From Polyangiaceae bacterium (GTDB lineage: Bacteria > Myxococcota_A > Polyangia > Polyangiales > Polyangiaceae), in the NCBI GenBank assembly GCA_019637265.1, contig JAHBVY010000001.1:1116001-1180000 (forward strand): a stretch of DNA of 64,000 nt, given 5' to 3'. Position 1 is the stretch's first letter. Every line of letters starts with the position of its first letter. The translations under genes and the position numbers were made by a program. The notes beneath the pieces are model-generated. The model searched no databases and was not told the DNA's origin. It was given only the letters and a program-made list of their open reading frames with translations. Shown one piece after another: positions 41,274 to 57,899 of this stretch.

Positions 41274-41648
41274 ATGCGCCGAGCAGCCACTATCGTCCTG
41301 TGTGCCGTCGTCCCAGCCATCCTCGCGAGCGCCTGCCGCAAGAAGGAGGAGGAGCCGCCGGCGAACTACCAGCAGCCGCCCTATCAGCAGCAGCCGCCCT
41401 ATCAGCAGCAGCCGTACGATCCTTACGCCCAGCCCACGGCCACGGCGTACCCCACGGCCACCGCGCCAGCGGGCACCTACGGCAACCCGAACCCGCAGGG
41501 CCTGCCCTGTCAGACGGACGCCACCTGCCTCACGCACAAGTGCAACCTCACGGTCGGCAAGTGCGCCTACCCCTGTCAGACGCAAGACGACTGCCAGCCT
41601 GGCTTCAGCTGCGCCGCGCCGTTCTGCGTGCCGGCCATGGGGCAGTGA
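41274..41648 (+). CDS. Small lipoprotein with Gln/Pro/Tyr linker and Cys motif
   Basis: 124 residues, with ribosome site AGGAG (41263-41267) 6 bases before the ATG. The signal peptide ends at lipobox LASAC, then KKEEEPP, a repetitive linker (YQQPPYQQQPPYQQQPYDPY, then TATAYPTATAP), and a compact eight-Cys motif CQTDATCLTHKC...CQTQDDCQPGFSC. This Cys motif is shared in type with other lipoproteins of this window. The product would be membrane-anchored; function unknown. A strongly structured intergenic region follows. Confidence 0.8.
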   Translation: MRRAATIVLCAVVPAILASACRKKEEEPPANYQQPPYQQQPPYQQQPYDPYAQPTATAYPTATAPAGTYGNPNPQGLPCQTDATCLTHKCNLTVGKCAYPCQTQDDCQPGFSCAAPFCVPAMGQ

Positions 41649-41691
41649 TTCACCCCCATTGAGCGCGGGGGCCTTCCCCCTGGTGGTGCCC

Positions 41692-41805
41692 CTAGAGCGG
41701 CGATCAGTTCGCCCGCCAGACGGACCAGGGAAACCGACCCCGTGCGGGCGAGGGCTCGGTTTCCCTGGTCCTCTGCTTGGTGCTGCTTCCCTTCGGCCGC
41801 TCTAG
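41692..41805. ncRNA. Candidate structured RNA: nested perfect inverted repeats
   Basis: An outer 10-bp pair CTAGAGCGGC (41692-41701) / GCCGCTCTAG (41796-41805) encloses an inner perfect 16-bp pair GGACCAGGGAAACCGA (41722-41737) / TCGGTTTCCCTGGTCC (41756-41771) with an 18-base GC-rich loop. Between the stems are 20- and 24-base single-stranded arms. Such nesting is far beyond chance and could be a stable RNA, a 3'-UTR processing structure of the lipoprotein gene, or the remnant of a palindromic mobile repeat. Transcript evidence is missing. Confidence 0.5.
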
Positions 41806-41817
41806 CCCTCGGATTTG

Positions 41818-41849
41818 AGGACAACAAACGGTAAACCGTTTGTTGTCCT
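41818..41849. repeat. Perfect 14-bp palindrome with TAAA loop
   Basis: AGGACAACAAACGG-TAAA-CCGTTTGTTGTCCT. The arms are perfect and rich in A/T for this genome. The geometry (14-bp stem, 4-base loop) suits an RNA hairpin or a dimeric regulator site. It stands between the nested repeat and a terminator-like hairpin, 110 bp upstream of cyaY. Confidence 0.8.
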
Positions 41850-41858
41850 AGCCCACCC

Positions 41859-41900
41859 AAGACGCCCACGTCGCCTCGAGCACGCTGGGCGTCTTCCGTT
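41859..41900 (+). terminator. Terminator-like hairpin upstream of cyaY
   Basis: A 9-bp stem AAGACGCCC (41859-41867) / GGGCGTCTT (41887-41895) with a 19-base loop is followed by CCGTTTG. The T-run is short, so termination would be weak; it closes the run of structured elements. Confidence 0.5.
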
Positions 41901-41959
41901 TGCGCGGCCGCGCAGTCTCGCGCGACAAGCGGTGCACCCTCTGTTAGCTAGGGAGAGCC

Positions 41960-42292
41960 ATGGACGAAGCAGAGTACGAGCGGCGCGCCTTCCCGGAGCT
42001 GCGCGCGCTGGTGGGCGCCATCGACGCGCTGGAAGCGGATGGTCTGGAGGCCGAGCTGTCGGGAGACATCCTGTCGCTCAGCTTCGAATCAGGGGACGAG
42101 TACGTCATCAACAGCCACCGCGCCGCCCGGCAGATCTGGATGGCCGCGGAGCGCACCGCCTGGCACTTCGACTGGGATGAAGCAGGCGGGCATTGGGTCG
42201 CGCGGAAGACGGGCGACGAGCTGTGGGCGACGGTGGCCTCCGTGCTGAGCCGTAAGCTCGGACGCCCGGTGAGCCTCAGTCAGTCTGGTTGA
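41960..42292 (+). CDS. cyaY: Frataxin / iron donor protein
   Basis: 110 residues, ATG at 41960. Frataxins bind iron and tune the cysteine desulfurase during Fe-S cluster assembly. The family pattern is clear: an acidic first helix (MDEAEYERRAFPELRALVGAIDAL is the helix region), the beta-sheet ILSLSFESGDEYVINSH, RAARQIWMAAE and the HFDWDEAGGHWVARKTGDEL strand pair, and a final helix. Length matches bacterial CyaY (~105). It is monocistronic here and not next to iscS, which is 30 kb away in this window. Confidence 0.92.
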   Translation: MDEAEYERRAFPELRALVGAIDALEADGLEAELSGDILSLSFESGDEYVINSHRAARQIWMAAERTAWHFDWDEAGGHWVARKTGDELWATVASVLSRKLGRPVSLSQSG

Positions 42293-56231: not shown

Positions 56232-56282
56232 TCAGCTTTCCTGGCGCGATGAACGGTTCGCCGTTCGTCGTGCTCGAATCAG

Positions 56283-57899
56283 TCAGCTGGCCTCGGCATC
56301 ACCTCGCGCGGCGGCGGGGCGAGCCAGGTGCTCGGCGTGAGACTCCTGGGCTCGCCGTAGGGCGCGGCGCAGGTCGCGGAGCATCAAGGGGCAGCTGAGC
56401 GCCATCCAGCTGAGCAGCATCCCGAGCACGGCGCCGGTGACGCCGAGCCAGGCGATGAGCGGCGGGGTGCAGAGCACCATGGCCAAGGCGGCGAGCGCGC
56501 CGCCCAGGGCCTGCCCTTTCAAGATCCCGCTGCCGTTCAAGAACACGATGATGCTGGCGAAGGTGCCCGTGACCGCGATCCAAGCGCCGAACGCGAGCAA
56601 CGCCCCGGGCGTGGGCACCGCCGCCTCCTGGCGCGTCCAGAGCAAGATCAAGGGCTCACCAACCAGCACCAAGCCGGCGCCCGTGAGCAGGCCCATGCTG
56701 GTGGTGTAGAGCAGCGAGCGCTTGAAGGTGCGGAGGATCCAAGCGTGGTCGCCGCGGCTCTGGGCCTCGGCGTAGGCGGGCCACAGGGAGTTCACCGGGA
56801 TGAAGATCAGGCTGAACGCCGCCGTCCCGAGGCGGTAACACACGCTGAAGGGCGTCACCGCGGCGGGCCCCAGGACCGATGAGAGCATCACGGCGGGCGC
56901 GGCGGCCAGCGCCGACGTGCTGAGCTGCGGCATCAAGAACAGGACCCCCTGGCGGCGCAGATCACCGACTATATCCGCACGGTAAACTGGCCTGAGCTGG
57001 CTGAAGATCGGGCCCAGGCTCCGCGCCGCCATCAGCCCCACGCCCCAGTTGACGAGCAAGGTGGGCGCCACCGTCATCGCGACGAAGGCGGTGAACGGCA
57101 CCCGCAGCGCGCCCCCCAAGAACACCGCCAGCAAGGTGAGCGCGCTGGTCACACAGGTGCCGAGGCCGTTCACCCACCCCAGCTGCAGCCCAGTAGCGAA
57201 GCGCACCCCCGCCATGAGCGGCAGCCCCAACGCGAAGCCGGCGAACACCACCGCGAGCGCCGGGCCCGTCTGCGGCGCCAGGGCGTGATTTTGCACATTG
57301 AAATAGGACCCCCACGGCAACAGGAGGCAGAGCGGCAGCCCCAGCGCGAGGAGCGCGAGCCCAATCTGCGCGAGCAGCCGCCGCCCGGTGTACAGCAGAT
57401 CGCGGATCGCCTGCTGATCGTCCCTGCCGAACGCCGCCGAGATCTTGTTTTGGAGCCCCAACCCCAAGCCCAAGTCAGCGAAGCTGAGCAGCTGCACCGT
57501 CCCCACCAGGGTCATCCACAGCCCGAAGGCCTCCGTGCCCAAGTAATGGAGCGCGACCGGCAGCTGCACCAGGTGCACCCCCAGCGTGACCACACGCGCC
57601 GCCGAGCCCGACAGCGTGGCCAGCGCGATCAGGCGGTTCCGACGCTGGCGGGTGGCGCTCAGCCGCTCGGCGCCGCAGCCCCGAGGCTCCGCGCCATCAC
57701 CCAATGTCGAGACGCTCGAGCGCTCCGTAGACTCGGCCCCGGCGCCCTGCGACTCGGCTCCATCGCCCGATGTCGAGACGCTCGAGCGCTCCGCGGCGCC
57801 CTGCGGCTCAGCCCCAGCGCCCTGCGACTCGGCCCCAGCGCCCTGCGGCTCGGTCTCCCCGCCCTGCGGCTCGGCCCCGCTCGATGTTGGGGTGCTCAA
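56283..57899 (-). CDS. Polysaccharide flippase, Wzx/MATE-like, with repetitive N-terminus
   Basis: 538 residues. The first ~85 residues are low complexity, with repeats of GAExQGAGAES and ERSSVSTxGDGAE, then a basic RQRRNRL leads into about twelve membrane helices. LALHYLGTEAFGLWMTLVGTVQLLSF-type helix 2/3 order, ADLGLGLGLQNKISAAFGRDD and the FIPVNSLWPAYAEAQSRGD loop fit the polysaccharide-transport branch of the MOP superfamily. It would flip undecaprenyl-linked oligosaccharide. It lies 77 bp downstream of the Wzc-like gene on the same strand. The cytoplasmic N-tail is unusual for the family. Confidence 0.88.
   Translation of the reverse strand: MSTPTSSGAEPQGGETEPQGAGAESQGAGAEPQGAAERSSVSTSGDGAESQGAGAESTERSSVSTLGDGAEPRGCGAERLSATRQRRNRLIALATLSGSAARVVTLGVHLVQLPVALHYLGTEAFGLWMTLVGTVQLLSFADLGLGLGLQNKISAAFGRDDQQAIRDLLYTGRRLLAQIGLALLALGLPLCLLLPWGSYFNVQNHALAPQTGPALAVVFAGFALGLPLMAGVRFATGLQLGWVNGLGTCVTSALTLLAVFLGGALRVPFTAFVAMTVAPTLLVNWGVGLMAARSLGPIFSQLRPVYRADIVGDLRRQGVLFLMPQLSTSALAAAPAVMLSSVLGPAAVTPFSVCYRLGTAAFSLIFIPVNSLWPAYAEAQSRGDHAWILRTFKRSLLYTTSMGLLTGAGLVLVGEPLILLWTRQEAAVPTPGALLAFGAWIAVTGTFASIIVFLNGSGILKGQALGGALAALAMVLCTPPLIAWLGVTGAVLGMLLSWMALSCPLMLRDLRRALRRAQESHAEHLARPAAARGDAEAS

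Follow-up and report, generated by a model that had tools for sequence, protein, structure and literature searches.

Introduction

Short non-autonomous transposons (MITEs) and related palindromic repeats have been described in several bacterial groups. The repeat unit of pneumococcus (RUP), a MITE of 107 bp that is present in about 100 copies, has been attributed to IS630-Spn1 (PMC2229807). RUP is short and gene-free, has terminal inverted repeats, inserts at TA and lies mostly between genes (PMC2229807), as does the repeat described here; it is sometimes found inside IS transposase genes (PMC2229807), a position that is also seen at one locus of the genome G060 (L180, below). On the other hand, RUP is AT-rich, shares its ends with a known IS of the same genome and has no reported conserved interior motif (PMC2229807), whereas the present element is GC-rich and about 160 bp long, is built from two hairpin modules, has stems that covary and a loop that is conserved, and had no IS partner that we could find. 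A second likeness, drawn from described architecture only, is to BOX (boxA-boxB-boxC) of Streptococcus, which is built of modules, is predicted to form RNA-like hairpins, has ends that hybridise in the fold and shows a target-site duplication (PMC3049150), and for which mobilisation by ISSpn2 has been proposed (PMC3049150). BOX has lone and multiplied modules (PMC3049150), and module B of the present repeat likewise occurs alone (L047, L072) and doubled (L180); the published description of BOX nevertheless sets it apart in sequence, host and terminal repeats.

Two further systems bear on the mode of movement. The REP/REPIN-RAYT repeats resemble the present element in that they are palindromes between genes and carry a fixed tetranucleotide at the base of the hairpin, but the genome studied here has no Y1 transposase, and its repeat has terminal inverted repeats and duplicates a TA. 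Elements of the IS630 family use TA as their target and duplicate it on insertion (PMC2170065), and a preference of IS630 for TA within CTAG is credited to Tenzen and Ohtsubo 1991 in the same paper. The present repeat resembles IS630/Tc1-mariner elements in both respects, as these are set out in PMC2170065 and the references cited there; it differs in having no transposase gene inside, and the IS630-type genes that we saw lack the ends of the repeat.

Results

Architecture of the repeat beside cyaY

The feature studied here lies in a 64,000-nucleotide window, by which we mean the whole stretch of DNA analysed, between a small lipoprotein gene (41274-41648) and, on the same strand, a gene at 41960-42292 that the initial annotation had taken for cyaY, an assignment borne out by a Pfam match to frataxin (PF01491, Frataxin_Cyay). 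The gap from the stop of the lipoprotein gene to the ATG at 41960 measures 311 bp, and not the 205 bp first given. A cluster of three perfect hairpins had been described in it, and all three are present. The nested inverted repeat with a 10-bp outer and a perfect 16-bp inner pair was confirmed as one large nested hairpin at 41692-41805, in which the outer stem pairs CTAGAGCGGC (41692-41701) with GCCGCTCTAG (41796-41805), and the inner stem, hairpin A (41722-41771, plus strand), pairs GGACCAGGGAAACCGA (41722-41737) with TCGGTTTCCCTGGTCC (41756-41771) around a loop containing GGGCGAGGG. The perfect 14-bp palindrome with a TAAA loop was likewise recovered as hairpin B (41818-41849, plus strand; arms 41818-41831 and 41836-41849). 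The terminator-like stem is 10 bp rather than 9 bp long (41859-41895, plus strand; arms AAGACGCCCA at 41859-41868 and TGGGCGTCTT at 41886-41895), and the cluster as a whole is not a single unit: the first two hairpins belong to one repeat, and the third stem lies outside it, the copies elsewhere stopping at 41851. With its weak T-tract, this stem may serve the lipoprotein gene as a terminator and is separate from the repeat; the terminator search called no terminator-like site at 41859-41895 by its own rules.

The complete copy, delimited by the extent common to copies elsewhere in the genome, runs from CTAG to CTAG over 160 bp (41692-41851, plus strand), and the repeat between both TA copies occupies 41695-41848. 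The TA of the target duplication is found at 41693-41694 on the left, inside CTAG 41692-41695, and at 41849-41850 on the right, inside CTAG 41848-41851. The left terminal inverted repeat, GAGCGGCGATCAGTTCG (41695-41711, plus strand), is supported by the agreement of the ends in G060, a relative discussed below; the right one, with the reverse complement GGACAACAAACGGTTTACC (41830-41848, minus strand), is at the same time the 3' arm of hairpin B. Inside the element, the left end recurs in inverted form (GCCGCTCTAG, 41796-41805, plus strand); this copy closes the outer 10-bp stem, and its CTAG (41802-41805) forms the border of modules A and B. The region 41685-41855 folds at -98.9 kcal/mol, compared with -62.8 +/- 4.4 for shuffled sequences (z -8.2), so that its hairpin folding is far beyond chance; the opposite strand is also very stable (z -7.1 against shuffles). 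The same window holds a second piece of the repeat, a degenerate right-end fragment (module B; 56240-56289, minus strand; profile search, E 2.4e-5) that lies directly behind a stop codon.

Copies in the host genome

A search for further copies, proposed with the initial annotation as a check, was answered by the host genome itself (G000; 5.7 Mb, 98.5% complete; copy numbers derived from searches). By blastn, about 28 places matched query positions 51-213 at 77-90% identity, together with fragments, and overall the genome holds about 30 full-length copies, most of them 80-90% identical, in addition to fragments and solo ends. The copies start with CTAG-AGCGGCGATCAGTTYGCC and finish with GTCGTCCTAG, and when aligned with their flanks they show sharp ends that correspond to 41692-41851 of the window. 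The right-end motif had 66 matches in the genome compared with 2 for the reversed control; many of these matches come from incomplete copies or from 3' hairpins that stand alone between CTAG sites (L047, L072, L064), module B thus occurring elsewhere without module A. With genes predicted by a simple codon-score gene caller, 19 of 21 full copies fell cleanly between genes, and copies were found in tandem, convergent and divergent gaps alike and in both orientations. The two ends of the host copies agree at about 13 of 20 bases, as judged by eye from the alignment.

Homologous families in other genera

No match was detected by blastn in 38 relatives, and the closest genome, G001, which is of the same genus and 82% complete, yielded no copy by blastn or by covariance model. 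A first covariance model, built from 32 own-genome copies, gave at least 25 matches in G060, at least 25 in G010 and 5 in G042, with weak matches in G003 and G084; G060, G010, G042 and G003, which represent other genera of the same GTDB family, carry homologous multicopy families. A pattern of the terminal repeats matched 690 times in G060, 153 times in G010 and 34 times each in G042 and the host genome, with 0 matches in every control. The relatives follow a common plan written in other stem letters, namely CTAGAGCACCGATCAGGTTGCC, stem A, an inner CGGTGCTCTAG and a hairpin B ending in CTAG, and their long paired stem A is capped by CCC...GRGGYGA...GGG. The two ends match at 18 of 20 bases in G060, where the left one reads CTAGAGCACCGATCAGGTTG and the right one, reversed, CTAGAGCAGCAATCAGGTTG. 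The assembly of this genome breaks at the repeat (for example C27:4-140, C95:4-140 and the end of C297); the copies there are thus alike enough to interrupt assembly, and this points to recent activity of the repeat in G060.

A second covariance model, built from five genera, matched 22 of 184 genomes of the order at E<=0.01. Several of these matches, in other genera and families, share the terminal repeats but enclose interiors that are unrelated and for the most part palindromic; six loci (L282, L285, L287, L288, L293 and L303) have nearly the same 20-bp ends (CTAGAGCRSCGATCRGTTTG) with unrelated interiors. To judge from these sequences, the shared ends would define an order-wide terminal-repeat superfamily, which should depend on one common transposase. 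The reverse combination was seen in G084, where L290 keeps the inner architecture and a GGGTGAGG-type loop with different ends (TACAGC...GCTGTA), and L119 has the same architecture and GGGTGAGG-type loop with ends that are different or missing; the interior thus appears to be conserved in G084 where the ends are not. A model match in G002 (L118) was taken as false, being without terminal repeats, and the weak second-model matches L297 and L298 look unrelated or doubtful.

The pair of lipoprotein gene and cyaY is syntenic in seven relatives, and the repeat is absent from the gap in all seven. In six of them the gap is repeat-free and about 90 bp or less, some genes nearly abutting, compared with 311 bp here; because the two genes lie so close together in these six, the window copy is a derived insertion. 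The seventh, G023 (L202), is the one syntenic relative with a longer gap, which has palindromes of its own (GAACGCCGATCGGTCGAACCGATCGGCGTTC) together with a AGAGCGACGAACGGTT stretch similar to a terminal repeat; a related element may have inserted there independently and at an earlier time.

Stem pairing between and within subfamilies

In the own-genome alignment, 17 of 42 pairs had changed on both sides, a covariation reached by 0 of 500 shuffles, and across five genera compensated changes were found in 19 of 28 predicted pairs; the controls in both comparisons keep shared ancestry. The shape of the hairpins has been kept while almost every letter changed, which is unusual. Within the main subfamily (21 copies) the picture is different: unpaired cells in stem A amount to 5.7% compared with 6.0% expected under independent arms, with no compensated private change. 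Stem B is paired somewhat more often than expected (4.8% of cells unpaired, 8.0% expected). In resident copies the pairing of stem A therefore erodes as neutral sequence does, and only the founders of subfamilies have it intact. Since its covariation lies between and not within subfamilies, pairing is kept in the propagating lineage and not locus by locus, a pattern in keeping with a transposon whose structure is either important or formed anew as it propagates; in such a transposon the pairing of stem A would matter for propagation itself. The covariation to be looked for in the covariance analysis suggested with the initial annotation is real across subfamilies and genera, but it belongs to the mobile family.

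These data bear directly on the proposal that the hairpins are a structured small RNA or host riboregulator, kept at the locus for its function as a 3'-UTR of the lipoprotein gene or a leader of cyaY. A very stable fold on both strands, stems that covary across subfamilies and genera and the placement between two genes of the same strand would all be expected of such an RNA, but a stem A that is unpaired about as often as independent arms would be, with no compensated private change in the main subfamily, argues against a locus-specific riboregulator, as do the orthologous gap of six relatives without the element, the presence of about 30 copies, in either orientation, in gaps of tandem, convergent and divergent genes, and the lack of an Rfam match. 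We therefore consider this explanation improbable, and neither the structured small RNA nor the regulated 3'-UTR offered by the initial annotation is supported as a role specific to this locus, since copies occur in all gene arrangements and the long stem does not stay paired once a copy has inserted. Selection for shape could still act elsewhere: it is possible, if doubtful, that a structured core, comprising hairpin A with its purine loop GRGGYGAGG and hairpin B, is kept for its shape across genera while the stems are rewritten, such that the element carries a functional RNA, or a DNA hairpin needed by the transposase or the host replication machinery, with selection on the active lineage and not on resident copies.

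Target site and precise insertion

Flanking bases were counted over 116 complete copies from three genomes. TA was found at the left end in 84 of these, the left TA was preceded by C in 105 and the right TA followed by G in 102, and the element itself nearly always starts with G and ends with C. In all 11 copies with a left flank other than C, the right end still had C before TA, so that the duplication is TA and not CTAG; the target is TA, preferred inside CTAG and duplicated on insertion. Two G060 copies lie inside other repeats that were also found uninterrupted (L278 compared with L114, and L155 compared with L267), and in the uninterrupted versions the flanks are joined by a single TA, the junction being exact with nothing gained or lost; neither empty site is an orthologous allele of the window copy, both being paralogous repeats from another genus. 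Where copies stand in tandem, they share one CTAG (L019, G060:C278 and G003:C40). In at least four copies (L002, L008, L012 and L021), and perhaps also in L023, the TAG of the terminal CTAG serves as the stop codon of the adjoining ORF, as expected from insertion into a C-TAG stop.

A MITE that derives from a different DDE family, such as the IS5 group with its 4-bp duplication (CTAG/CWAG), would share the CTAG target and has a precedent in MITEPsy1, a 100-bp MITE of Pseudomonas syringae with a 4-bp CTAG or YTAA duplication and a probable IS5-type origin (PMC3189936). The 4-bp duplication was rejected on the 11 informative copies, in which the right end remains C-TA even though G, A or T stands at the left flank, so that only TA is duplicated; furthermore, no IS5/IS4-type locus with these ends was found in four genomes, which makes such an origin very unlikely.

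Search for the mobilising enzyme

The TA rule is the insertion rule of IS630/Tc1-mariner elements, and an enzyme of this type most likely moves the repeat in trans. The host genome has a single IS630-type gene, without the ends of the repeat, and the IS630-type fragments of G060, G010 and G042 are also without these repeats as element ends; in total, none of six IS630-type loci carries the MITE ends as element ends, and the same holds for 16 DDE_Tnp_1 loci. No autonomous element with these terminal repeats was thus found among the DDE_3 or DDE_Tnp_1 loci, in a search confined to these transposase families and, in G060, to a smaller part of the genome, and the partner may be lost or unsampled. 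As no IS with shared ends was found, we class the repeat as working like an IS630 MITE rather than as derived from a named IS. In G060, a copy with module B doubled head to tail splits an IS630-type transposase gene (L180, G060:C191, around 1850-2060), and a truncated copy adjoins another IS630-type fragment (L183).

Movement by a RAYT (Y1 tyrosine transposase), as for REP/REPIN-type repeats, would suit an element that is palindromic, intergenic and modular, with a conserved CTAG at each hairpin foot and solo hairpins. The 98.5%-complete host genome nevertheless has no Y1 transposase by a search that was positive in 5 of 14 control genomes, and the IS605/RAYT hypothesis was rejected on this ground. 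True terminal inverted repeats and the TA duplication contradict a Y1 enzyme as well; Y1 enzymes are not known to make such ends with a TA duplication. Such an origin is thus very unlikely. Intrinsic transcription terminators that are merely alike are a highly improbable explanation: several copies and solo B hairpins do stand directly behind stop codons, but hairpin B is followed by CTAG with no T-tract, no terminator-like site was found, copies also lie between divergent genes, and an identity of 80-90% over 160 bp, unpaired parts included, would go unexplained.

Comparison with known families

Rfam searched at permissive thresholds returned chance matches only, far below gathering scores, and no match was detected by blastn in phages and plasmids. 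The terminal-repeat pattern gave 30 matches in viral contigs, which by our estimate is about the chance number. The exact loop pattern gave 18 single matches in unrelated phyla among 84,980 named genomes, which were judged to be chance, in a search to which diverged members are invisible and which possibly omitted the records of the present genomes themselves. By a word search, a recent review of prokaryotic MITEs makes no mention of IS630, compensatory stem changes or myxobacteria (PMC10969869). The family is apparently undescribed, and the initial designation of the feature as an undescribed element holds as far as it was tested, no Rfam, phage or plasmid match and no published description having been found.

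Discussion

The feature beside cyaY is very probably one copy of a MITE, most likely moved in trans by an IS630/Tc1-mariner-type transposase. It is short, gene-free and multicopy (about 160 bp, about 30 full copies in the host genome and 690 end matches in G060), has terminal inverted repeats (CTAGAGCRSCRATCRGKTTG), and is inserted precisely, with duplication of TA in 11 of 11 informative copies and two paralogous empty sites. A palindromic mobile repeat had been among the options of the initial annotation, and with many copies, homologous families in other genera, terminal inverted repeats and a TA duplication it is the one that the data bear out. Several points count against the MITE: the conserved interior (stem A and the GRGGYGA loop) exceeds what terminal repeats alone would need, no autonomous partner was found, G001 has no copy, and the empty sites are paralogous. 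The mobile repeat family itself is real, well supported and of a known kind.

The element is a unit of about 160 bp between two TA copies, with imperfect terminal inverted repeats and no gene, whose interior consists of two self-complementary modules: in A, a long hairpin is capped by a purine loop that is conserved, and in B, a shorter one contains the right terminal repeat. It goes into TA, mostly within CTAG, and duplicates the TA, and the copy studied here landed between the lipoprotein gene and cyaY, where any effect on the mRNA of either gene would be incidental.

The conspicuous hairpin cluster beside cyaY is in this way accounted for by a mobile repeat, and the same repeat shapes intergenic DNA in several genera, with hundreds of end repeats in G060. 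Its many copies, subfamilies and compensated stem changes offer a direct test of why mobile repeats often keep hairpins, the candidate causes being transposition, RNA or a side effect of their origin. Furthermore, splitting covariation into its between-subfamily and within-subfamily parts is a cheap analysis that can be repeated on RUP, BOX and NEMIS.
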